A stretch of DNA of 29,941 nt from a virus. The first letter of the stretch is position 1. Each line of letters opens with the position of its first letter. The notes beneath the pieces are model-generated. The model was given only the letters and a program-made list of their open reading frames with translations, searched no databases and had not been told where the DNA came from. Below, piece after piece: positions 18,199 to 29,926 of this stretch. The stretch lies in IMG/VR virus record IMGVR_UViG_3300028844_000646, positions 1-29,941 of that record; one strand, written 5' to 3'. Made by a program: the position numbers and the translations under genes.

Positions 18199-21100
18199 CT
18201 ATGTATTATCGGATTTTATCCAACCAGAGCCAGTTATGAATAGTAGTTCAACAGTGGTTCTATTTGTACTTAAAACTAAATTATTAACGTCACCTTGAAT
18301 ATTATTACCACCTCTAGCTATTGTTATATTATTAGTAGCCGCATTTCCACCGATATCTATAAGTTTCACTCGTTGTCCATTAACTGGAGAGCTTGGTAAA
18401 GTAGCTGTTACAACATTACTTGCTGTACTTACTAGATATGCAGTATAGTTTGACGCCGCTACGATAGAAAAATCAGCAGTCTTAATAGTAAGGTCGGTTG
18501 TCATACCTACACCTGCTCCACCTGTTCCTACAGCAATAGTTGATTTGGTTATAGTTGGTATTTGTGCATAAGTTCTAGCACCTTTAAAACCATGGAATAG
18601 ATGTATAGGAGCACCACTACCATTAGCTTGGGCAGTAGCGATTAACTCATTTTCAACTTCAGACCAAATTTGAATACTATTATCAGTATAATATCTAAGA
18701 CTAATCATACCTACTGGATTATTAACACCTATTCTTCTATATCCAGGTATAGTTCCACTGCCAGCTTCAAAGTAACCATCGGTAGCACTACCTGATGTAC
18801 CAGCTGCTGAAGTATTAAAATTATAATCAGGGCCAATAATACTTTCATTAGTTTGATATTGGAATCTATTTGTTAGTAGTTCTTCAGCATTTGAAACACC
18901 TGAAAGATTACCTGTATAATTAGTTCCAAAGAAATCTCCTTGAGCCACAAAACTTAAATTAATATTTATTTGTTCACCTGGGTTAATAGATATACCACTT
19001 TTAATAACTGTATGATCTTCAACACCATTTTTAACACCATCTTCCGAATTATCAAAGTCGTGTGCAACTTCCCAATCAAAATTAGTATTAGTTATAGAAC
19101 CATTAGGGAATGTAGCATTAGACCAAGCACCAAATTGTACTTTAAAAGAATTTACAGATAATGGATTAATTGTTCTACCAATTGTATTTTCAGCACCACC
19201 AGTTTTATCTACTAATTCTAAATGACCGTCACTTAAAAATCTAAGGGATAAAGGTGCATTGTTAGCAACTGAATATTCACTTCCACTATTATAATCAGTA
19301 ACCTCTGTGTTTGTACTATCTCCAAATGTTACAGTACCATCTTTAAAGAAAAATACTGTATTCCAATTTGTTACAACAATCTGGTTTTGATATGTTTGAG
19401 CAGTTTGAGCACCGTCCCAAATACCCATTCGCCACTGTCGATCAGTAGTCATATTAAAGTTATATTCAGAACCTCTTGTTAATTCTTCACCCCAATAAAA
19501 AGGTCCTTGATTCGCTACTGCAGTAGTCGTTGTTGAAACATTAACTGGATCATCAGCATTAGTTCCATATGAAATATACCATTGATTACTTCCAGAAACC
19601 AGTCCAACAGGATTGATTAAAGTAGATGCATCGATACTAACTGTTGTAGAATCAGATTTAGTTAAAACTAAATTAGTCCCAACAACCGCACCACTTGCAA
19701 GTTCAGCACCAGCACTACCACTAACTGTGATAGTTTTAGTTGTTCCTGTTCCACTAGCAGTTACGCCACCACCAACAAAGTTAATTGTTGAGGCCGCTGT
19801 TGCTAATGATGATCCTTCTTCTTGTATAGTAATCGCACTTCCGCCACCACCAGATGAAGCAATTGTTCCATCAGCGGCAATAGTAATATTACTACCTGCC
19901 GTTAAAGCGGCAACAACGTTAGTTGTGTCAGTAACATCAGCACTTGCTTCGATACCATCTAATTTTGTATGATCTGCGTCAGTGAATACGTTTGAATCAG
20001 TGGCCGCTTCAACAGCAGTTCTAATTTCAGCGTCTGTCTGATCAGCTGTAGCACTTGCTTCGATACCATCTAATTTTGTATGATCTGCATCAGTGAATAC
20101 ATTTGAATCAGTGGCCGCTTCGACAGCTGCTCTAATTTCGGCATCCGTTTGATCAGCTGTAGCACTAGCTTCAATAGCGTCTAGTTTAGTATGATCTGCA
20201 TCTGTAAATACATTTGAATCAGAAGCCGCTTCAACAGCAGTTCTAATTTCAGCGTCTGATTGGTCAGCAGTAGCAGCTTGTTCAACTGTTCCTAATTTTG
20301 ATTTTTCAGCGTCTGTAAATTCGTTTGTATCATTTAAAGCCTCATAAGCTGTTTTAATTTGAGTGGCACTTACAACACCAGTTGAACCAACAACAGATGT
20401 AACACCACCAGTAGGTGTTAATAATAATGTGAAGTCTGCCATAGTTCCAGCAGAACCACCGTTATGAATATATGTTTTATTTTGATCTGTTCTAACAACA
20501 ACATCACCTTGACTAGTTGATAAAGCTAATTGAGTAGATTCACTACCAACAGTAAATACATCTGTGATAGCAATTTGAGCAGCAGAAATTTGACCACCAG
20601 CACTAATACTAATATTAGTTCCAGCAGATAGAGCATTTACAACATTTGATGTATCTGTTATATCAGCGCCTGCCTCAATACCATCTAATTTTGTGTGATC
20701 TGCGTCTGTAAATACATTTGAATCCGTAGCAGCCTCAACAGCTGCTCTAATTTCAGCGTCTGATTGATCGGCTGTAGCACTTGCTTCTATAGCATTTAAT
20801 TTTGTGTGATCTGCATCTGTAAATACGTTAGAGTCTGTAGCCGCTTCAACAGCTGCTCTAATTTCGGCATCCGTTTGATCAGCACTAGCATTTGTCTCAA
20901 CAGTTCCTAATTTAACATTATCAGCGTCTGTGAAAGCGTTAGTATTACTCTGAGCTTCATATAAAGCTTTTATTTCTCCACCAGTTAAATCGTCTTTCGC
21001 ATTTGTCTCAACAGTTCCTAATTTAGTATGATCAGCGTCTGTAAATACATTTGAATCTGTGGCTGCTTCAACAGCAGTTCTAACTTCAGCGTTAGTTAAG

Positions 21101-22800
21101 TTTGCTATGGTAATAGTTTTAGTTGCTCCTGTTCCAGAAGCAGTTACACCAGAACCAACAAAGTTAAGTGTTTCGGCTGCTGTTGATAATGATGAACCTT
21201 CTTCTTGTACAGTAATAGCGGCACCACCACCTGAAACTGTAATAGTTTTAGTTGCTCCTGTTCCAGAAGCAGTTACACCAGAACCAACAAAATTAATTGT
21301 AGTTGCAGCTGTTGATAATGATGAACCTTCTTCTTGTATAGTGATTGCAGTTCCACCACTACCAGTTTGATCGGCAACCCAAGCATAGTCTGAACCATTC
21401 CAACTTAATATCTGCCCAGATGAAGCTGATCCTGTATTTAAATGTGTATCAACTCTTGCATCTGTATAATACAAATTAGTGCCTTCTGGTAAATTAGCAG
21501 TTGTAGAAGTTGTTGTATCTAATAAACCAATCCAGTTACCAGCATGAGCAAAATAAGCTTTACCAGTAGCGTGAACATGAGCAAACATACCATGATAAGT
21601 TGTAGCACTTGGTAAATCACCTGAAGTTGCAAACATGTTTTTAAATAGTAATTGACCTGTTGTAGTAATATTATTAGAACCCATATCTAAATCAGAACCT
21701 GTTACAGCAGTAATTGCTCTCGCATCTGTGTAATATAGATTAGTTGTTCCTTCAGCAACTGTGTCTGAATTTCCTTGTGTGTATGTAATAGCACCAGTTG
21801 TAGAGTTATAAGCAATTGAACCACTAGCAGATATTGAACCTCTTGCTCTGGCGTCTGTGTAATATAGATTACTTGAACCTTCAGCAATTTCATCTGAATT
21901 ATCTTTTGTTAAAATTTGTGAGTCAACATATGCTTTAACTGATTGTTGAGATGGAAGTTTAGTAGCACTATCTGATACCATGTTGTCTTCATCTATCAAT
22001 GCATTTGTAATTCTTGCATCTGCTCTGGCATCCGTGTAGTATAAATTTGTTGTTCCCTCAGAAAGATCATCTGTATCTTTTGTTGCTAATTGAGTATTAA
22101 ATCTTGGGTCAAATGTAGAGTTAAAATCACTAGTAGCTAATTTGGTAGCAATACTGTTTGTAATTGTTGTAGAGAAATTAGCGTCATCACCTATTGCTGC
22201 TGCTAATTCATTTAATGTGTCTAATGCGCCTGGTGACGAATCAATTAAAGTATCAATTTTTAATTGTGCTCTTGCGTCTGCTCTAGCATCTGTGTAATAT
22301 AAATTTGTTCCCTCTGCTAAATCAGTGGTAGACTTACCTGAAAGATCAACTGTAAAATTAGATGAATCATAACCATCATTTGTAATAGTTACTGTGTTAC
22401 CACTAACAGATGTCGAAACTCCTGTGCCACCAGCAATTTGTAAAGTTCCACCTAAAGATTGAGTTATTGTTGTAACTGCATCCCCTCTAAATAAAATATT
22501 AGGATTTACTAATTTCGCATTGGTAATTGAACCCGCTAATTGAGTATTTGTAATTGTTCCAACCAATGAACTTGTTGGATAATTAGTAGCGTCTGATAAA
22601 TCAAATGCTGGAGTGGCATCTGTGTCACCTAGACTTAATGTAAGACCACCTAAACTAATAGTAGTGTTTAGTGTTGTTCCATTACCAAAGCCGGTGTAAA
22701 TTTCGTTGAAGTTATCATTAATTTTGATAGCACCTACTCTTAACTCATCTCCTGATGCGTCATTTGCTGCTGATCCAATATTTACGAGTTGTTTTGCCAT
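18199..22800 (-). CDS. Giant tail fibre protein, 1533 aa
   Basis: The largest gene in the window. It starts MAKQLVNIGSAANDASGDEL, then RVGAIKINDNFNEIYTGFGN, a common N-terminal attachment domain of marine T4-like fibres. Five copies of NLYYTDAR lie in the first third. An LNELAAAIGDDANF module matches the 368-aa fibre. Three copies of a domain beginning I-T-[IV]-QEEGSS and containing FVG-x-GVTASGTG follow. Two arrays of 37-residue units (EIRAAVEAATDSNVFTDADH type) lie at about residues 570-715 and 815-960. Unique sequence from about 1000 includes tryptophan-rich beta segments, probably the receptor-binding part. The end (about 1440-1533) resembles a common fibre C-terminal domain, finishing FITGSGWIKSDNT. 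Long-fibre identity is inferred. Confidence 0.82.
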   Translation of the reverse strand: MAKQLVNIGSAANDASGDELRVGAIKINDNFNEIYTGFGNGTTLNTTISLGGLTLSLGDTDATPAFDLSDATNYPTSSLVGTITNTQLAGSITNAKLVNPNILFRGDAVTTITQSLGGTLQIAGGTGVSTSVSGNTVTITNDGYDSSNFTVDLSGKSTTDLAEGTNLYYTDARADARAQLKIDTLIDSSPGALDTLNELAAAIGDDANFSTTITNSIATKLATSDFNSTFDPRFNTQLATKDTDDLSEGTTNLYYTDARADARITNALIDEDNMVSDSATKLPSQQSVKAYVDSQILTKDNSDEIAEGSSNLYYTDARARGSISASGSIAYNSTTGAITYTQGNSDTVAEGTTNLYYTDARAITAVTGSDLDMGSNNITTTGQLLFKNMFATSGDLPSATTYHGMFAHVHATGKAYFAHAGNWIGLLDTTTSTTANLPEGTNLYYTDARVDTHLNTGSASSGQILSWNGSDYAWVADQTGSGGTAITIQEEGSSLSTAATTINFVGSGVTASGTGATKTITVSGGGAAITVQEEGSSLSTAAETLNFVGSGVTASGTGATKTITIANLTNAEVRTAVEAATDSNVFTDADHTKLGTVETNAKDDLTGGEIKALYEAQSNTNAFTDADNVKLGTVETNASADQTDAEIRAAVEAATDSNVFTDADHTKLNAIEASATADQSDAEIRAAVEAATDSNVFTDADHTKLDGIEAGADITDTSNVVNALSAGTNISISAGGQISAAQIAITDVFTVGSESTQLALSTSQGDVVVRTDQNKTYIHNGGSAGTMADFTLLLTPTGGVTSVVGSTGVVSATQIKTAYEALNDTNEFTDAEKSKLGTVEQAATADQSDAEIRTAVEAASDSNVFTDADHTKLDAIEASATADQTDAEIRAAVEAATDSNVFTDADHTKLDGIEASATADQTDAEIRTAVEAATDSNVFTDADHTKLDGIEASADVTDTTNVVAALTAGSNITIAADGTIASSGGGGSAITIQEEGSSLATAASTINFVGGGVTASGTGTTKTITVSGSAGAELASGAVVGTNLVLTKSDSTTVSIDASTLINPVGLVSGSNQWYISYGTNADDPVNVSTTTTAVANQGPFYWGEELTRGSEYNFNMTTDRQWRMGIWDGAQTAQTYQNQIVVTNWNTVFFFKDGTVTFGDSTNTEVTDYNSGSEYSVANNAPLSLRFLSDGHLELVDKTGGAENTIGRTINPLSVNSFKVQFGAWSNATFPNGSITNTNFDWEVAHDFDNSEDGVKNGVEDHTVIKSGISINPGEQININLSFVAQGDFFGTNYTGNLSGVSNAEELLTNRFQYQTNESIIGPDYNFNTSAAGTSGSATDGYFEAGSGTIPGYRRIGVNNPVGMISLRYYTDNSIQIWSEVENELIATAQANGSGAPIHLFHGFKGARTYAQIPTITKSTIAVGTGGAGVGMTTDLTIKTADFSIVAASNYTAYLVSTASNVVTATLPSSPVNGQRVKLIDIGGNAATNNITIARGGNNIQGDVNNLVLSTNRTTVELLFITGSGWIKSDNT
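19926..20345 (-). repeat. 111-bp tandem repeats, second array in the giant fibre
   Basis: Roughly four tandem units of 111 bp, each encoding 37 residues of the type EIRxAVEAATDSNVFTDADH followed by TKLD[GA]IEASATADQ. The period was measured from repeated plus-strand words (cacttgcttc at 19941 and 20052). Copies are near identical and therefore prone to recombination. Confidence 0.8.
20655..21095 (-). repeat. 111-bp tandem repeats, first array in the giant fibre
   Basis: Roughly four units of the same 37-residue repeat as the other array. One is divergent (EIKALYEAQSNTNAFTDADN). The two arrays are separated by about 300 bp coding for a different beta-rich segment. Confidence 0.78.
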
Positions 22801-22820: not shown

Positions 22821-22828
22821 TATTTATA
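22821..22828 (-). promoter_or_regulatory. T4-type late promoter for the giant fibre gene (proximal)
   Basis: An exact TATAAATA box on the minus strand, 20 bases before the fibre start codon. It is the first of two boxes spaced 21 bp apart. Confidence 0.77.
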
Positions 22829-22841
22829 ATCAATATAGTAT

Positions 22842-22849
22842 TATTTATA
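22842..22849 (-). promoter_or_regulatory. T4-type late promoter for the giant fibre gene (distal)
   Basis: A second TATAAATA box on the minus strand. It overlaps the stop codon region of the 170-aa oxygenase gene and lies 21 bp upstream of the proximal box. Confidence 0.68.
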
Positions 22850-23357
22850 ACAATTTATTGAATGCAATATCATGTATTCCCATATGAAATACTATTCTTT
22901 CTTTACTAGGAGACTTTACTCCATGAGGTTTTTTAGTATTCAATACAACCATCGAATCATATAAAATACTATCATTTTCTATACCATCATCAAAATATAA
23001 TTCACCAGTATTTTCTGTTATAGGTATTACAAAAGAACACTTACTTTTTACGTCTGAATGTAAAGGTAACTCGCCACCTTCTTTTACTTTAAAGAAATTA
23101 CATCTAAATTCTTTAGGTCTTATATTAAACTCATTCCAAATACCTTTTATTAATCTTAATAATTTACGATCAAAATTGTGTATTTCCTGTACATAAAATT
23201 TATTCATATCTTCACCACCGGTAGCATTTTTTACATATTCTGAATATAATTGATTACTGTCTTCCCACTTGTTATTAAAATAATCGTTCCAAAAGTCTTT
23301 ATCTACCTTAAAATCTGTCTCAATAAAAAAGTTTTTATGCCATTTTTTATAAATCAT
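22845..23357 (-). CDS. Putative 2OG-Fe(II) oxygenase, 170 aa
   Basis: The C-terminal half has the cupin-type iron site of prolyl-4-hydroxylase-like or Asp-hydroxylase-like dioxygenases. His100 and Asp102 lie in LPLHSDVK, the distal His145 in KKPHGVK, and Arg154 in ERIVFHMG would hold 2-oxoglutarate. Strands CSFVIPIT and GELYFDD between them complete the pattern. The N-terminal 90 residues are helical and charged. Such enzymes hydroxylate protein side chains or small molecules; the substrate here is unknown. The start overlaps the upstream oxygenase gene by 11 bases with an AGGA site at good spacing. It is the last gene before the giant fibre gene. Confidence 0.7.
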   Translation of the reverse strand: MIYKKWHKNFFIETDFKVDKDFWNDYFNNKWEDSNQLYSEYVKNATGGEDMNKFYVQEIHNFDRKLLRLIKGIWNEFNIRPKEFRCNFFKVKEGGELPLHSDVKSKCSFVIPITENTGELYFDDGIENDSILYDSMVVLNTKKPHGVKSPSKERIVFHMGIHDIAFNKLL

Positions 23358-24147
23358 CTTGTCCTATAAGTGATACAATAATATGAGAACGAGCAGTGGT
23401 GCCTTTGTTCCAAGCACTATGTCGTAATCCTTGATTTAGAAACCAACAAGAACCTGGTTCCATAGTTTGATATACTTTCTTTCCATCAACAACACAATAG
23501 AAACCACAGTCTTTGTTTGTTGTTATAGGAATATGAAATCTTATAGAATAATCTGTATTATAATCTATGTGTTCGGCGATATTAGCGCCTGGTTCCATAA
23601 TCGCTATTCTTGCCCTTGTAGTTTCTGCCTTGAAAGATGTAATGACTTCTTCTAAATATGTTCCTTTTACCCAATCTTTTATTTTATTATAATGTCTTTC
23701 ATCTAATCTACTCTTAGGTATCTTCTTATCATAAACTCTATTTTCTGATTCAGGATTGTATTGACAAAGCGCTACTTGTTTATATGGCGAACCATTGACT
23801 TCATATCTTCCTTTATCATCTTTGACAATGTAGTTTTCAAAAGGTTTAACATAGTTTCTATAATCCCATGCCATTCGTTTATCATTTAGACCTTTTCTAA
23901 ATTCAGATTCTTCTACATCATTATTTTGTAAAAATTTATAGGCATCTTCAATTGTATCGAACTTTAATCCAAATGCTTTTTGTAATTTAGCAGTCTTACC
24001 TCCTACTAGATCACCATATCCATCTTTTGCTTTTAGATCATCTACTTCAACAGGCATTTGTTGAACTACTTTAATAATCTTTTCTACATCAAAAGTTTTA
24101 TCTAACTTTTTAAATGGTGGTAGTTCATGTCTCTTTTTTAATTTCAT
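23347..24147 (-). CDS. Putative Asp/Asn beta-hydroxylase-like 2OG oxygenase, 266 aa
   Basis: The ATG at 24147 is chosen because of an AAGGA site four bases before it; an upstream in-frame start at 24210 lies well inside the preceding gene. The C-terminal domain has the family pattern: ARIAIMEPGANIAEHIDYNT (His193, Asp195), a IRFHIPITTN strand, WFLNQGLRHSAWNKG (His243) and Arg253 in TARSHIIVSL. The product thus appears to have all iron and 2-oxoglutarate ligands. The N-terminal 150 residues include charged helices and KDGYGDLVGGKTAKLQ, possibly a substrate-binding part. Neighbouring genes encode other oxygenases. The substrate is unknown; virion protein or a small molecule are both possible. 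Confidence 0.72.
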   Translation of the reverse strand: MKLKKRHELPPFKKLDKTFDVEKIIKVVQQMPVEVDDLKAKDGYGDLVGGKTAKLQKAFGLKFDTIEDAYKFLQNNDVEESEFRKGLNDKRMAWDYRNYVKPFENYIVKDDKGRYEVNGSPYKQVALCQYNPESENRVYDKKIPKSRLDERHYNKIKDWVKGTYLEEVITSFKAETTRARIAIMEPGANIAEHIDYNTDYSIRFHIPITTNKDCGFYCVVDGKKVYQTMEPGSCWFLNQGLRHSAWNKGTTARSHIIVSLIGQDDL

Positions 24148-24691
24148 ATGTTCCTTTATACTGCCAACAGTTTGGATTCTCTTTACGACATACGGCAACT
24201 TTATCATCACTAAATTGCCAATTTGTATTCGTCTTCTTTCCTATTTCTAAAAATAGTTTCTTCATATACAATCTATTTCTACATCTACTTATAAACGCCT
24301 TTGTATATCCTAAACTCTCTGATATCTTCAATTGATGTTTTATAGTTTCTACCAAATGAGGTCTAACTATATTTCTGCTAGGTCTTCTTAAATAATCATG
24401 TTCCCAATATCTATTTAATATTCTTACTTCACCTTTCTCATAAAATTCAGGTCTGTGCCATACTGAACTAAACCCTAGTATATTATCATCTTTTAATAAG
24501 ACAGTGATACACTCAAAGGCAAACCAATCAATAGATGTATAATCCACTTTTTTAAAATGACCTTGTTCTAAATCATCAAAAGATATTTCTTTTAATTTTT
24601 TTATTATATCAGTTCGTTCTTCAGGTATAAATGTTAATACATCACACTCTGATTTTACGCCATAATTACTTTGACCAGGTGACCACATCAT
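24125..24691 (-). CDS. Possible GNAT-like protein of the oxygenase cluster, about 188 aa
   Basis: No family can be assigned with certainty. The order helix-rich N-terminus, WFAFECITVLLKDDNILGFS, SSVWHRPEF, RILNRYWEHDYLRRPSRN, then a long helix (VETIKHQLKISESLGYTKAF) and ISRCRNRLYMKKLFLEI recalls a GNAT acyltransferase fold. There, a strand reporting on the substrate is followed by an acetyl-CoA-binding helix. A classical Q/RxxGxG/A motif is not obvious. The start is uncertain: ATG at 24691 or 24688 is favoured over 24718, which has no ribosome site. It overlaps the preceding oxygenase gene and the next one. Operon membership suggests that it works with the oxygenases. Confidence 0.45.
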   Translation of the reverse strand: MMWSPGQSNYGVKSECDVLTFIPEERTDIIKKLKEISFDDLEQGHFKKVDYTSIDWFAFECITVLLKDDNILGFSSVWHRPEFYEKGEVRILNRYWEHDYLRRPSRNIVRPHLVETIKHQLKISESLGYTKAFISRCRNRLYMKKLFLEIGKKTNTNWQFSDDKVAVCRKENPNCWQYKGTYEIKKET

Positions 24692-25244
24692 TATAAAACT
24701 CACTATTCTTTTTACCATGCACTAGTAAATGTATTCTTTCTTCATCTGAATTATTTTCAACATAATGTTCATAATGAATATTCAATACAACACTCATACC
24801 AGGCTTATACTTTAACTCTTTATTATTTAACATAAACTTATTACCATCAGGATATGTTATACTTATATTTAATGGTTCTAACCAATTTCGTTCAGGTATA
24901 TCGACATGCTTAGTAATATATCCTTTTGGTTTTATAACTAAAAATCTAACATCATCAATACGAGAATAAGGTAGAGACTCAACAAACTTAATTGTGTTTG
25001 AACATTTTTTACCTATATCTGTTACAAAAGGTTTCTCACCTTTCTTTCTATATTCCCAATGACTGTTTGTTTTGTCTGAACCAAATCCGTATAGTGTGAC
25101 TGCGTGCCAATCTTTGTGACCATCTTCAGGTCTATGTTCTATTAGACTATTTTTTATTTGGTTATATTCTTTTAATATTTCATTAGTCGGAACATCAAAT
25201 CCCATTTCAACCCACTCGACACTACTATTTCTATCAAATTGCAT
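24666..25244 (-). CDS. Putative Asp/Asn beta-hydroxylase-like oxygenase, about 192 aa
   Basis: The C-terminal half has an Asp-hydroxylase-like iron site. DVRFLVIKPKGYITKHVDIP carries His113 and Asp115. Then come LNISITYPDG and the distal histidine in NIHYEHYVENNS (His160), with Arg170 in ERIHLLVHG ten residues later. The same ten-residue spacing occurs in the 266-aa neighbour. The N-terminus has a DWHAVTLYGFG segment typical of such proteins. The ATG at 25244 lies one base after the desaturase stop. A TTG at 25265 with an AGGA site is a real alternative and would add seven residues. The substrate is unknown. Confidence 0.68.
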   Translation of the reverse strand: MQFDRNSSVEWVEMGFDVPTNEILKEYNQIKNSLIEHRPEDGHKDWHAVTLYGFGSDKTNSHWEYRKKGEKPFVTDIGKKCSNTIKFVESLPYSRIDDVRFLVIKPKGYITKHVDIPERNWLEPLNISITYPDGNKFMLNNKELKYKPGMSVVLNIHYEHYVENNSDEERIHLLVHGKKNSEFYNDVVTWSK

Positions 25245-25245
25245 A

Positions 25246-25875
25246 TTATATAAAATATTTTTCAACTACGTATCCTGAAATATCTCCTTTACTTAATCTA
25301 ATCTTTTTAGGATTATTGTGATGAACATTATGAGAACCTTCTCCAGCAGATAGAAAGTTTATAAACTTATTAGTTACTGCTGAACTACCTTTATGACCTA
25401 AGGCATTAAATATACCATAACTTACAAATCCTAATATCAATGGTGATAAAACAAATATAAAAAACACTTTAAAACTTATTAGTAAAGTTATAACTGCTGT
25501 TGTAATATGTAATTTTAACCAATGGTTATGAAAAAACATAACTCTAGGATTCTTAAATAAATCTCTCACATAAGGTCTATCTATTTTTTTGACTTTCCAG
25601 TTATTGAAAAGAACATTCCAAAAACCTTTGTGTGTAGGAGAGTGTGGATCTTTTGGTGTGTCTGAAAATCTATGATGTATTCTATGAGCACCTATCCAAC
25701 TTAATGGTGACCTTGAAAATGCTAACATTGCTAGAAACAATGAAACCACTTCAAATAGTTTAGATGTTTTAAATTGATTGTGAGCAAAGTGTCTATGAAG
25801 ACCTATGGATAGGCCGAACATAGCAATAACTTGATACCAGATGAATCCCATAATGAGCATTACGAAACTGGTCAT
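25246..25875 (-). CDS. Compact membrane fatty-acid desaturase
   Basis: A di-iron membrane desaturase. All three histidine boxes are present: HRHFAH (27-32), HRIHH (64-68) and HNVHH (182-186), plus NALGHK (157-162), the usual extra iron-ligand histidine. Hydrophobic segments at about 3-26, 41-56 and 122-158 fit a membrane protein with the active site facing the cytoplasm. At 209 residues it is shorter than most delta-9 acyl-lipid or acyl-CoA desaturases (about 260-320); the N-terminal membrane helix appears trimmed but every ligand remains. It would insert a double bond into host fatty acids. It sits six bases after the 98-aa gene and is flanked by oxygenase genes. Confidence 0.9.
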   Translation of the reverse strand: MTSFVMLIMGFIWYQVIAMFGLSIGLHRHFAHNQFKTSKLFEVVSLFLAMLAFSRSPLSWIGAHRIHHRFSDTPKDPHSPTHKGFWNVLFNNWKVKKIDRPYVRDLFKNPRVMFFHNHWLKLHITTAVITLLISFKVFFIFVLSPLILGFVSYGIFNALGHKGSSAVTNKFINFLSAGEGSHNVHHNNPKKIRLSKGDISGYVVEKYFI

Positions 25876-25881
25876 TTTTGA

Positions 25882-26178
25882 TTACTCTTGTTCTATAACT
25901 GTTGAGATATTGTTACTATCACAATATGTTTCTCTAGCATCAGCATTCGCATCTAAAGTGTTGTCTGCCAAGTATTCTGCATGATCATCAGAAGTATTAA
26001 AAGTTACAGTCATAGTTTTTTCTAACTGATTTTCTGAAATTTCATTGAAATTATAACTAATAATTTTACCAGCAGTTTTAAATTCTTCGATTTTTGTTAT
26101 TACTTCTGATTGATTAGAAGACCAAAAATCAACTGAAGTTGATGGTCTTGTTTGTATCAATTTGTATGTTATAGCCAT
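25882..26178 (-). CDS. Small hypothetical protein before the desaturase, 98 aa
   Basis: A 98-residue acidic protein opening MAITYKLIQTRPSTSVDFWS. It has an alpha/beta look: two beta segments (ITYKLIQTRP, KTMTVTFNTS) and helices with Asp/Ala-rich turns (NTLDANADARETYCDSN). I recognise no characterised family. The opening resembles, from memory, small conserved proteins of marine T4-like phages. A late promoter at 26197-26204 lies only 18 bases before the ATG and an AAGGAT site between them. It therefore starts a late unit containing the desaturase and the downstream oxygenases. Function unknown. Confidence 0.6.
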   Translation of the reverse strand: MAITYKLIQTRPSTSVDFWSSNQSEVITKIEEFKTAGKIISYNFNEISENQLEKTMTVTFNTSDDHAEYLADNTLDANADARETYCDSNNISTVIEQE

Positions 26179-26196
26179 TGTTTTTATCCTTTCTTA

Positions 26197-26204
26197 TATT
26201 TATA
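26197..26204 (-). promoter_or_regulatory. T4-type late promoter within the oxygenase cluster
   Basis: An exact TATAAATA box on the minus strand, 18 bases before the 98-aa gene and next to the end of the 215-aa oxygenase gene. It splits the cluster into two late units. Confidence 0.75.
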
Positions 26205-26206
26205 CA

Positions 26207-26854
26207 TTATTTACATAGCATATTATTAAATACTGCTTTAATAGATTCTTCACAGCATTTTATATTCATAACTAACATTGTAGTATGTTTAATAGTAGGT
26301 TCATTATCTAATTGACTATCAAAAGAAAATATAGCATGTCTCTTGTTAGTATTTACGAAATATGTATATCCTTCATTAAAAATTAAAGGTTTATCCTCTA
26401 ACATAAAATATAGACTTGGAGGATTACATGTTCTTAATGGAACTAATAATCTCATAAACCTTTGCTCGGCAAATCTATAATTATCTATATGAGGAGGAAA
26501 ATAACCACCCCTATTAAAACTTAAAAAATGTGTTCTACACAACCAAGGTTTAAATGGATCCACTAGTTCCTGAACTTCTTTACTCTTATAATAAACATCT
26601 GTAAGTGTAGTAAAAGAGTCCTCATCATATTTTACATTTTCTTCTTTAGATAATTCATACAGACTATCTAAATCTTTTCCATTAATACTTCCATCTAAAC
26701 TTGTTATGCTAAGTCCATACCTTGGTATATTTTTTCTAGGATTGTATTGAGCAAACTGAAAATCTTTTATTTCTTCAAATAACTTATCTGTATTACAAGA
26801 TATTTTTAGAGGTATGAAATCTCCATATGTAAGTAATTGATTATAATTTATCAT
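26207..26854 (-). CDS. Putative 2OG-Fe(II)/Asp-hydroxylase-like oxygenase, 215 aa
   Basis: The iron site is visible as His122 and Asp124 in GGYFPPHIDNYR and the distal His173 in NTNKRHAIFSF. Between them is a strand (FMRLLVPLRT) and LYFMLEDKPLIFNEGYTYFV, as in Asp-hydroxylase-like and cyanophage-type 2OG oxygenases. The residue that would contact 2-oxoglutarate is less clear; Lys189 or His190 in TIKHTTMLVMN are candidates. The N-terminal half has LCRTHFLSFNRGG directly before the motif. The start overlaps the upstream oxygenase gene by 14 bases. The ribosome site is weak and translation is probably coupled. The substrate is unknown. Confidence 0.65.
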   Translation of the reverse strand: MINYNQLLTYGDFIPLKISCNTDKLFEEIKDFQFAQYNPRKNIPRYGLSITSLDGSINGKDLDSLYELSKEENVKYDEDSFTTLTDVYYKSKEVQELVDPFKPWLCRTHFLSFNRGGYFPPHIDNYRFAEQRFMRLLVPLRTCNPPSLYFMLEDKPLIFNEGYTYFVNTNKRHAIFSFDSQLDNEPTIKHTTMLVMNIKCCEESIKAVFNNMLCK

Positions 26855-27422
26855 TGATCCATTCTTTTTTTAGTTTAGGTGGTGTTACATTCATTGTAAA
26901 TAATTCGTTAGAATATTTATCTTCTCCAATCCAAGGCGCTCCTATACAAATTGTAAGTTTTTCTTCATTAGGAACTAACCCATGTGGATGGCCACCATTT
27001 AAAATATAAGTATTATACGTATTGGGTGCATAAACTTTATCACCATTTTCATCTAAAAAATATAAACTATCTAGTTTACCTGTCAAAGCAAGTCTTAATT
27101 TTTGATGAAACTCTGGTATCTCTATTTGCTGGCAATCTATATGTGTAGGAATATAACTACCTTTCTTTGTTTTTAAAATATGAATTTTACCCTCACTAGA
27201 CATAATAGGTTTTATCTTCTCTTTAAAAACTTTTATTAAGTGTGTGCAGGTATTACCTTCTTCCGTCCATTTAAAGTCTTTATCATATATACTTAATATT
27301 TCACAGTTTCTATATTCATTCCAATACCAACCACTTGAAATAGATTTGATTTCTTTGGTAATTAAATCTATATCTTCTTTTGTTATATTTAAATCTATTG
27401 CCTTGTATGTAAACACGCTCAT
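26841..27422 (-). CDS. Putative 2OG-Fe(II) oxygenase-like protein, 193 aa
   Basis: The iron motif is His94 and Asp96 in SYIPTHIDCQQ, with the distal His147 in NGGHPHGLV. A lysine (Lys155 in NEEKLTICIGA) stands where an arginine usually binds 2-oxoglutarate, so cofactor use is less certain. Strands LRLALTG and DSLYFLDENG lie between, as expected for the fold. The first 80 residues are helical and include GWYWNEYRN. This is the first gene of the minus-strand cluster. A late promoter box ends only five bases before its ATG and no ribosome site is present, so the message may be leaderless. Confidence 0.6.
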   Translation of the reverse strand: MSVFTYKAIDLNITKEDIDLITKEIKSISSGWYWNEYRNCEILSIYDKDFKWTEEGNTCTHLIKVFKEKIKPIMSSEGKIHILKTKKGSYIPTHIDCQQIEIPEFHQKLRLALTGKLDSLYFLDENGDKVYAPNTYNTYILNGGHPHGLVPNEEKLTICIGAPWIGEDKYSNELFTMNVTPPKLKKEWINDKL

Positions 27423-27427
27423 ACTGA

Positions 27428-27435
27428 TATTTATA
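27428..27435 (-). promoter_or_regulatory. T4-type late promoter giving a leaderless start
   Basis: An exact TATAAATA box on the minus strand. With the usual spacing, transcription would begin at 27422, the first base of the 193-aa oxygenase start codon. It points away from the plus-strand late box at 27441. Confidence 0.7.
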
Positions 27436-27495: not shown

Positions 27496-28365
27496 ATGAA
27501 TAAAGTAAATATAGTATGTACTAGTAAGCCTGGTGATGGTCTTTTAAGATATAGTTATGAACACTGTTGCGCCCTAAATTCTCTAGGTGTTGAAACACAA
27601 TTAATCATCATTCCCAATTCAAAACATACTAAAGAAGAATATATAAAATCTATTACAGATCAATATAAGACTTATCAAAATGTGATCTTTGATGATTACA
27701 CTCCTTCTAAAAATGAGATTACTTTAGTCTTAGGTAGAAGTATGGTCACTCTAGCGTATTTGGATAGAAGAAACTATACTGAAAATCAACTATTCACTTT
27801 ACACTTACTCTTTAGAGAAAAACTTATATCTGTGTATTCAGAAAACCATGTGGAACAATATCCTATGGCGTTAGAATACTTTACATCTAAAAGAGTTTAT
27901 GACCTATGTGATTTTGACGTATATCCTAATGGGGTTGGAACACAATACGAAAAGATAATTAACTTTGATGAATACAAACCTATAACAAATGATATACAAT
28001 ACAAATATTTATTTTTAGGAACAAACGAGATATACTATAAAGAGATAGAAAAACATATACACAAATATCCAGATCATGGTATTGTGACTTACAACGAGAA
28101 GTGGATTAATCCAAAGTTAAACAATCTGTTTGCGCCTATTGAAAACATACTAGGTAAATTTGAAACATATGTTTATACAAAACCAAATTTTGATCCAGCG
28201 CCTAGATTGTTTGTTGAGTTTAGATGGTTGAGTAAAAATGTAGATTATGTAAGAGATAAAAACATCAAAGACGGTGGTATGGTATATTGGAATAGACCTC
28301 AACCCACGAAAGAGATATATTTTAACAATATAAATATACTTGTTGAATTAATTAAAAAAATATGA
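27496..28365 (+). CDS. Putative glycosyltransferase-like protein, 289 aa
   Basis: Assigned with moderate confidence. The first strand and loop (VNIVCTSKPGDGLLRYSYEH) followed by LNSLGVETQLIII looks like the start of a GT-B Rossmann fold. NGVGTQYEKI near residue 148 lies in the middle. YLFLGTNEIYYKEIEKH starts a second domain. VYTKPNFDPAPRLFVEFRWL (about 229-248), then VRDKNIKDGGMVYWNR, resembles the C-terminal donor-binding region of such enzymes. No classical EX7E motif could be confirmed. It would transfer a sugar to an unknown acceptor such as a virion protein, DNA base or host glycan. It overlaps the nitroreductase gene by four bases (ATGA). AGAGG lies only two bases before the ATG. Confidence 0.5.
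   Translation: MNKVNIVCTSKPGDGLLRYSYEHCCALNSLGVETQLIIIPNSKHTKEEYIKSITDQYKTYQNVIFDDYTPSKNEITLVLGRSMVTLAYLDRRNYTENQLFTLHLLFREKLISVYSENHVEQYPMALEYFTSKRVYDLCDFDVYPNGVGTQYEKIINFDEYKPITNDIQYKYLFLGTNEIYYKEIEKHIHKYPDHGIVTYNEKWINPKLNNLFAPIENILGKFETYVYTKPNFDPAPRLFVEFRWLSKNVDYVRDKNIKDGGMVYWNRPQPTKEIYFNNINILVELIKKI
28329..28336 (+). promoter_or_regulatory. Possible internal late promoter before the nitroreductase
   Basis: An exact TATAAATA on the plus strand inside the end of the glycosyltransferase-like gene, 25 bases before the nitroreductase start. Spacing is right for a late promoter. Being in an A+T-rich coding sequence, it could be chance. Confidence 0.4.
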
Positions 28366-29078
28366 AAAAAGAATTAGAACATGCTGTAAATATAACTCAA
28401 AGAGCTCAAAGAAATTATGATTTAACTAAAAACATTCCAGATGATGATTTGAAAACTTTGATAAATGTTGCTATCAACTCACCCTCTAAACAAAACGAAA
28501 CACATTTCAAATTAAAAGTATTTACTGATAAAAAAATAATAGAAAAAATACACGAAACTACAAAAAGATTTTCTTTAGTTTCAGAAAAATACATAGATAA
28601 AATGTTTAAAGATAGTGAGAAGGGTTTTTTAAGTAATGATAAGTATAATGTAACCAATTCTCAAATCTTAGCTAATGTTGTTTTTGTATATTGTAAAGAC
28701 GAAGATAATATAAGAGGTGGCACACATAGATTTGCGAAAAAAGATGGAGCGAGTAAATTAGTTTTAGATACATTATTAGAACAAAAATCTTATTCAATGG
28801 GTATATCCACTGGACAATTAACATTATCAGCCGCAATGTTAGGTTATAGAACTGGAATTTGTTCGGCATTTGAAAGTGAGAAACTACAAGAAATAATATC
28901 ATCTGATACGGAACCTAAATTAATTGTAGGTATTGGTTATAATAATGAAAATATGGATAGAAGATTACACCCAACTTTGAAAAATAAAGATGTGCCTGAA
29001 GCATATAGAAACGGTGATGATGAAAGTAATTGGAGATTTCCTTCTTTCGAAAAAAATATAAAGGTAACAATAGATTAA
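28362..29078 (+). CDS. Nitroreductase-family flavoprotein
   Basis: An FMN-dependent oxidoreductase that uses NAD(P)H. The family signature is visible in order: R14AQR17NY near the N-terminus, INSPSKQNETHFKLKVF (about 38-54) for FMN binding, a long dimer helix, GISTGQLTLSAAMLGYRTGI (147-166) and PKLIVGIGYNNENMDRR (185-201). At 238 residues the length is usual. Substrates in this superfamily range from nitro compounds and quinones to flavin and halogenated tyrosine, so none is assigned. It overlaps the upstream gene by four bases and the downstream QueC-like gene by one base (TAATG). All three therefore belong to one message. In a phage it could supply reducing steps for nucleotide or glycan modification. 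Confidence 0.82.
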   Translation: MKKELEHAVNITQRAQRNYDLTKNIPDDDLKTLINVAINSPSKQNETHFKLKVFTDKKIIEKIHETTKRFSLVSEKYIDKMFKDSEKGFLSNDKYNVTNSQILANVVFVYCKDEDNIRGGTHRFAKKDGASKLVLDTLLEQKSYSMGISTGQLTLSAAMLGYRTGICSAFESEKLQEIISSDTEPKLIVGIGYNNENMDRRLHPTLKNKDVPEAYRNGDDESNWRFPSFEKNIKVTID

Positions 29079-29926
29079 TGATTTTAAAATACGGAAACCA
29101 AACAGTAGATTTTTATACTAAAATTCAATCTTTAATAGAGATATCTCCTTATAGAGATAAAGCGCTTAATGATGTTGATTATGATGATAACGGCATACCA
29201 AAACGTGTTGTAGTTTCGTTATCAGGTGGTTGTGATTCAGCCTCGTCTTTTTACTTAACAGCGAAACACTTTCCCGATATAGAAATATATCCGTTAACGT
29301 TAAGAGATCAAAATGCTCCTAAAGACGCTGATGCGGCCATTGAGATATCTAAATTTATGAAGAAACGTTTTCCTCACTCAAAGATTAATGATATAGAAGT
29401 TGGTTCATATAATGATTTAGATATAACAACTTATCATAGAGCACGACAAACAATTAAAAGTAAAGATGAATATAAAACTCTTAACGCAACACAAATGTCA
29501 AAAATTAATTCAATAGATGATCAAAACAATGCTTATATGAAGATGGTAGGTAAACCTTTGAGACTTGATGGTATGACTGCTAATCCACCTAAAGATGTTA
29601 GAATGAGTTTTGCTGATAGAATGAAAAAATATCACCCAACTAGAAACTTTGGACCTTTTGAAGTTGATAGAGTACAAGGAGAAATCAGACGTGATGTACA
29701 TAATAAACCAGAGTTAAAGTACAATGTATATAAACCTTTTCTAAATGTAAATAAAAGATTTGTTGCTGGTGTATTCAAAGAAAATAATTTAATGGACGAC
29801 TTATATCCTATAACGAGATCGTGTGTAGGTGGTGGTAGACAAACAAACAATTTCACGGAATGGTGTTGGCAGTGTTTCTGGTGTTATGAAAAAGATTGGG
29901 CATTTAATGAAGTATCTGATAGTTAG
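29078..29926 (+). CDS. QueC-like PP-loop ATPase (7-cyano-7-deazaguanine synthase-like)
   Basis: The ATG at 29078 overlaps the nitroreductase stop by one base and is preferred to an earlier in-frame start at 29030 inside that gene. VVVSLSGGCDSASSFYL (44-60) is a PP-loop; SGGCDS binds and adenylates the substrate. The C-terminus holds Cys249 in TRSCVGGGR and Cys263, Cys266, Cys269 in EWCWQCFWCYEKDWAF. This resembles the zinc site of QueC, which makes preQ0. The first gap is longer (13 residues instead of about eight). At 282 residues it is larger than QueC (about 225), with an insert around 115-200. preQ0 synthesis for tRNA or phage DNA modification is plausible; a different PP-loop amidation or thiolation cannot be excluded. 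Confidence 0.65.
   Translation: MILKYGNQTVDFYTKIQSLIEISPYRDKALNDVDYDDNGIPKRVVVSLSGGCDSASSFYLTAKHFPDIEIYPLTLRDQNAPKDADAAIEISKFMKKRFPHSKINDIEVGSYNDLDITTYHRARQTIKSKDEYKTLNATQMSKINSIDDQNNAYMKMVGKPLRLDGMTANPPKDVRMSFADRMKKYHPTRNFGPFEVDRVQGEIRRDVHNKPELKYNVYKPFLNVNKRFVAGVFKENNLMDDLYPITRSCVGGGRQTNNFTEWCWQCFWCYEKDWAFNEVSDS

Follow-up and report, generated by a model that had tools for sequence, protein, structure and literature searches.

2-Oxoglutarate (2OG) oxygenases are encoded by abundant ocean phages, where they are among the frequent genes without an explanation. Genomes of T4-like cyanophages have up to 5 of them (PMC3037559), phage S-SCSM1 carries 24 2OG-Fe(II) oxygenases (PMC9602691), and PHD-like members are widespread in marine phages (PMC12774648); an earlier sequence-only reading of the locus studied here, which spoke of marine phages as having single 2OG oxygenases, therefore fell short of what has been published. 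The PF05118 superfamily includes LpxO, a member of the Asp/Asn hydroxylase family, and OlsC, which hydroxylates the acyl chains of ornithine lipids (PMC5767591). In pelagimyophages, an Asp/Asn beta-hydroxylase is counted among the core proteins, and a hypervariable host-recognition cluster (HRC), located beside the neck gene and containing both fibre and metabolic genes, has been suggested to change the surface of the host as a defence against co-infection (PMC7029224). In this report, we focused on five predicted Fe(II)/2OG oxygenase genes that lie with a desaturase gene and a GNAT-like gene in IMG/VR virus record IMGVR_UViG_3300028844_000646 (29,941 bases, hereafter the window). The cluster is on the minus strand, as are all features below unless stated otherwise, and its genes are numbered g1 to g8 from left to right.

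The main finding of this study is that three of the oxygenases (g1, g2 and g4), the GNAT gene g3 and usually the desaturase gene g5 form a cassette common to distantly related ocean phages, to which the oxygenases g7 and g8 are accessory. We give about even credence to the view that the locus is a cluster of auxiliary enzyme genes, expressed late, in the HRC of a T4-like pelagimyophage, with a mobile biosynthetic or envelope-tailoring cassette as its heart. With a conserved cassette and its fixed partners, unexplained oxygenases become a defined pathway amenable to expression and assay, one that could show what chemical changes phages impose on the most abundant marine bacteria.

A conserved cassette in marine phages

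Our survey, anchored on g4, comprised 57 IMG/VR contigs falling into 19 clusters at 90% g4 identity. The order desaturase-g4-g3(GNAT)-g2-g1 recurs in nearly all of these contigs and clusters. This conserved neighbourhood suggests a pathway, as the earlier reading had proposed. Where at least 3 kb of sequence follows g4, g2 is found in 47 of 48 contigs and g1 in 46 of 48; where at least 1.5 kb precedes it, the desaturase is found in 45 of 47. The GNAT gene is present in the order string of all 19 clusters, the scripted count of g3 being too low since this gene overlaps g4. There is some variation on this theme: one group is ordered g4-g2-g1-g3, one carrier (L155) appears without g1, TauD is often inserted inside the cassette, and carriers vary in whether they have g7, g8 and extra oxygenases. 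Across lineages, the evolutionary distances of g1, g2, g3 and g4 correlate (Mantel r 0.42-0.77), and because they do so while the desaturase is looser, the tight unit is g4-g3-g2-g1. The cassette also appears to have been exchanged horizontally between phages. This is suggested by the fact that Pelagibacter phage Mosig, an isolate with a terminase 77% identical to that of the window, has genes related to g7 and g5 and, more remotely, to g2 but no match to g1, g4 or g8, while the cassette is present in carriers with distant portals, namely L132 (portal 34% identical to that of the window, g4 69% identical) and L155 (portal 32%, g4 58%).

The loci of relatives are often richer than that of the window. 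Three further families with an invariant HxD...H motif (u161, u162 and u294) lie downstream of g1 in many carriers, for example in that order at L020:10308-10793, L020:10768-11256 and L020:11237-12121. Pfam and PHROG gave nothing for these members; u161 and u162 match the g2 and g1 profiles at 5e-7 and 4e-6. Counting TauD, eight or nine oxygenases occur at single loci (L128, L145 and L153), and methyltransferases, radical-SAM genes and a PP-loop gene are also seen in relatives' loci.

Could the cassette have come from cells? Genome contigs searched with the g7 profile gave 7 loci, of which at least one (L086) is a short contig with pelagimyophage gene content. Among 385 genomes from the class of a Rhodobacteraceae metagenome-assembled genome bin, the only strong g4 match is in that bin, with phage-type neighbours, and eight other genomes have weak matches only. 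A cellular source was rejected on this sample, which is small and tells little of other bacteria. The Rhodobacteraceae bin itself (G001, behind L087 and L102) has nine phage portal gene matches on different contigs, which suggests heavy contamination by contigs of T4-like phages; the cassette is on one contig of the bin. In a separate observation, a Bdellovibrionia contig (L101:7371-13243) encodes two PF05118 proteins, a 678-aa 2OG-FeII_Oxy-like protein, radical-SAM/SPASM proteins and a 358-aa protein without identity. This is possibly a biosynthetic cluster, and it shows that a similar predicted gene mix exists in a cellular genome; no g1 match was found there.

Oxygenases, partner genes and genomic setting

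All five oxygenase genes predicted by the sequence-only reading, with products of 170, 266, about 192, 215 and 193 residues, were found at the expected positions, and the products are confirmed, at the level of sequence, as intact Fe(II)/2OG oxygenases linked to the PF05118 superfamily. Two of them match PF05118 (Asp_Arg_Hydrox) directly, well above the curated cut-off of 22.6 bits: g2 (266 aa, 23347..24147; ligands H193, D195 and H243, with R203 also invariant) at 6.7e-14 and 52.5 bits, and g4 (24666..25265) at 4.4e-14 and 53 bits. The start of g4 is either an ATG at 25244 (192 aa) or a TTG (199 aa), and its ligands in the 199-aa numbering are H120, D122, H167 and R177. The remaining three, namely g7 (215 aa, 26207..26854; ligands H122, D124 and H173), g8 (193 aa, 26841..27422; ligands H94, D96 and H147) and g1 (170 aa, 22845..23357; ligands H100, D102, H145 and R154), do not match this model themselves and appear to be related to it only indirectly. 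PF05118 is matched by 13 of 21 members of the g7 family (best 1.6e-6) and by none of the 8 members of the g8 family; g8 is linked to g7 by BLAST (1e-6) and by a profile match (3e-6), g1 is linked to g8 by a profile match (3e-4), and an iterative search seeded with g7 recovers all five.

The HxD and distal histidine that had been noticed in each protein hold up as a metal triad invariant within each of the five families. As a bare pattern, HxD...H is weak evidence because shuffled versions of the proteins show it in 5-22% of cases, and we did not count it; it is seen in 0 of 21 other window proteins. The double-stranded beta-helix fold is assigned by sequence profiles for g2, g4, g7 and g8, and by an AlphaFold model for g1, the hardest of the five to recognise (pLDDT 88.5); this model matches 2OG prolyl hydroxylases in the PDB (E about 1e-7). 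Structurally, it is nearest to human PHD2 and to a prolyl-4-hydroxylase from Pseudomonas whose structure was determined in complex with EF-Tu, with TM scores of 0.5-0.6. Sequence-profile searches of the PDB with g4 and g1 gave nothing significant; L-proline cis-4-hydroxylase is among the PDB matches of the PF05118-type genes. None of the five matches phrog_61, a common marine-phage 2OG family, at E up to 1. Pairwise similarity among them is marginal, in keeping with the earlier view that they are distinct enzymes and not recent copies, and ratios of nonsynonymous to synonymous substitution (dN/dS) of 0.02-0.15 against the nearest relative show purifying selection on all five predicted enzymes.

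The identities proposed for the two partner genes also stood. The desaturase gene g5 (25246..25875) matches PF00487 (2.3e-12), and its three His boxes (H27/H32, H64/H67/H68 and H182/H185/H186), which mark a membrane fatty-acid desaturase, are invariant in 19 sequences. The product of g3 (24125..24718), whose start codon is uncertain and whose homologues are mostly 172-210 aa long, has no meaningful Pfam match, and its GNAT fold is confirmed by an AlphaFold model (pLDDT 84.4) with GNATs as best PDB matches (E about 1e-5). Phage Mu Mom is among these matches, and DNA hypermodification was considered for that reason and set aside, Mom ranking with many others. One gene had been left out of the earlier description of the cluster: g6 (25882..26178) encodes a fast-evolving 98-aa protein (dN/dS 0.41-0.84) with no function assigned.

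From left to right on the minus strand, the window encodes T4-like virion genes, successive tail-fibre-type proteins and, after them, the oxygenase cluster, a layout that fits the pelagimyophage HRC. Virion genes were assigned by position and size, with PHROG matches for both neck/connector genes. SAR11 can reasonably be taken as the host because the window terminase (gp17) is 77% identical to that of Mosig. Beyond the cluster, on the opposite strand, a divergent gene (27496-28365) had been read as glycosyltransferase-like, an identity that we rejected since its 8-member family found no glycosyltransferase match in Pfam or the PDB, and the associated idea of follow-on glycosylation depends on this unsupported identity. 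The Mosig homologue, Mosig_00083 (L010:23563-24429), is annotated as a molybdenum cofactor enzyme; this label looks doubtful, the family having no supporting Pfam or PDB match and CxxxCxxC not being seen in the window protein. The next two genes, also opposite in strand to the cassette, encode a nitroreductase-family protein (28362-29078) and a PP-loop ATPase-like protein with weak NAD synthase-type matches (29030-29926).

T4-type late promoter boxes, TATAAATA, occur 14 times in the window against 5.7 expected, a number reached in 1 of 100 shuffles. One lies directly before g8 (27428..27435) and another in the gap between g7 and g6 (26197..26204). Two more precede the neighbouring 1533-aa tail fibre gene (18199..22800), which we treat as context and do not judge a cassette member: one overlaps the end of g1 (22842..22849) and the other follows at 22821..22828. 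A late cluster is supported, but because the fibre has late boxes of its own, the ending of the cluster at this giant gene need not mean a shared operon. As a side observation, the box before g8 ends 5 bases before the ATG, and the transcript may be near-leaderless or the true start may differ.

Possible substrates and competing explanations

How might these enzymes work together? Successive steps on one scaffold are suggested because several hydroxylases keep company with one GNAT. The oxygenases would work in succession, each at a different position of a shared, non-virion substrate made late in infection, which g3 would acylate, and to which the TauD, methyltransferase or radical-SAM enzymes of relatives would add further steps. 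Most likely, this substrate would be either an envelope lipid or glycoconjugate precursor or else a small metabolite derived from amino acids. The former would be the leading class because of the acyl-chain hydroxylation by LpxO and OlsC, the weak g4 matches to these enzymes, the membrane desaturase with which the cassette usually begins, and the HRC setting; the latter is the alternative because proline hydroxylases are among the PDB matches. Several points weigh against this picture of a common pathway. The NCBIfam matches of g4 are far below the cut-offs (18.0 bits against 450 for OlsC, 16.6 against 500 for LpxO; E about 1e-3), PF05118 also includes enzymes whose substrates are proteins or free amino acids, among them L-proline cis-4-hydroxylase, and the g1 model is closest to protein prolyl hydroxylases. 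The desaturase is the least co-inherited member (Mantel r 0.08 with g2) and was not detected in some carrier contigs. Each oxygenase might instead have a substrate of its own, the grouping serving co-expression only. A bolder version seems possible to us, if clearly less probable: that three to nine 2OG oxygenases, with a GNAT, TauD, methyltransferases and radical-SAM enzymes, make up a new phage-borne pathway to a new multiply hydroxylated metabolite or envelope modification, which would move between distant T4-like marine phages and have no cellular counterpart.

The sequence-only reading had offered two possibilities, lipid modification and hydroxylation of side chains in virion proteins, the neighbouring fibre included. 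The cluster does lie directly before the 1533-aa fibre gene with its late boxes, tail or fibre genes come after the cassette in the window's own lineage, and the g1 fold resembles protein prolyl hydroxylases. Yet a tail or fibre gene was recognised within 2.5 kb after g1 only around L082, L118 and L085. Most other clusters have none in any of their testable contigs, the L028 cluster is mixed (L028 itself has tail genes at the contig end), and contigs of the L127-L137 lineage instead have s12, a structural gene, on the upstream side of the cassette. Structural genes were recognised by their similarity to those of the window and Mosig, and divergent fibres could be missed. The window virion proteins have no EGF-type Asp/Asn hydroxylation motifs and no collagen-like Gly-X-Y runs, the fibre contains 0 cysteine and 23 prolines in 1533 residues, and the desaturase does not fit. 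On the motifs, the fibre's two late boxes and the gene order in relatives, we rejected fibre modification as the principal explanation and consider it quite unlikely. We are just as sceptical of the idea that the oxygenases are independent protein hydroxylases that adjust translation by modifying the host's EF-Tu, ribosomal proteins or similar targets. The EF-Tu-complexed Pseudomonas enzyme and PHD2 are indeed the closest structures to g1, but this similarity is moderate and common to the whole superfamily, and tight synteny with the GNAT, the desaturase and TauD suggests a pathway.

A chance assembly deserves slightly more credit, although it too is improbable: clustering might reflect the accumulation of unrelated auxiliary genes in a hypervariable island, as the pelagimyophage HRC is known to be (PMC7029224) and as the coming and going of g7, g8 and the extra oxygenases would suggest. 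It is the persistence of the g4-g3-g2-g1 core over 19 clusters, in phages whose portals are about 33% identical, that this explanation accommodates poorly. Finally, the genes might mainly consume 2OG or alter nitrogen or energy signalling, as has been proposed for cyanophage 2OG oxygenases (PMC3037559). Such a role would not call for a fixed order of three different conserved enzymes alongside a GNAT and a desaturase, or for each enzyme to be under purifying selection, and we regard it as highly improbable. A mobile biosynthetic or envelope-tailoring cassette within a late-expressed HRC cluster is the reading that we prefer.

Comparison with known systems

Roitman et al. are said to have described phage lipid desaturases in 2018. 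A probable pelagiphage scaffold with a desaturase has also been reported (PMC11480375). These cases share with our locus a phage-borne fatty-acid desaturase, whereas an oxygenase-GNAT cassette is not described in the accessible parts of that literature. That marine T4-like phages can carry multiple 2OG oxygenases is established, and in the open-licence papers that we searched the conserved cassette was found nowhere described.

The nearest arrangement is the HRC of Mosig EXVC030M, where two Asp_Arg_Hydrox genes, a desaturase, an N-acetyltransferase and TauD lie in the same genomic region. There, however, a peroxiredoxin, an FMN reductase, an aminotransferase and a methylase come in between, and counterparts of g1, g4 and g8 were not matched. 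With the PF05118 superfamily, including LpxO and OlsC, the window shares the HxD...H triad and the Pfam matches of g2, g4 and most g7-family members; the difference is that three to five members are clustered here, with g1 and g8 too divergent for any Pfam model, and that g4, despite its weak matches, falls far short of LpxO and OlsC themselves. With marine T4-like cyanophages, it shares the presence of many diverse 2OG oxygenases in one phage. In S-SCSM1, these belong to PF13640, PF13661, PF13759 and PF05721, whereas those of the window are PF05118-like, and a GNAT and a desaturase accompany them in a conserved cassette.

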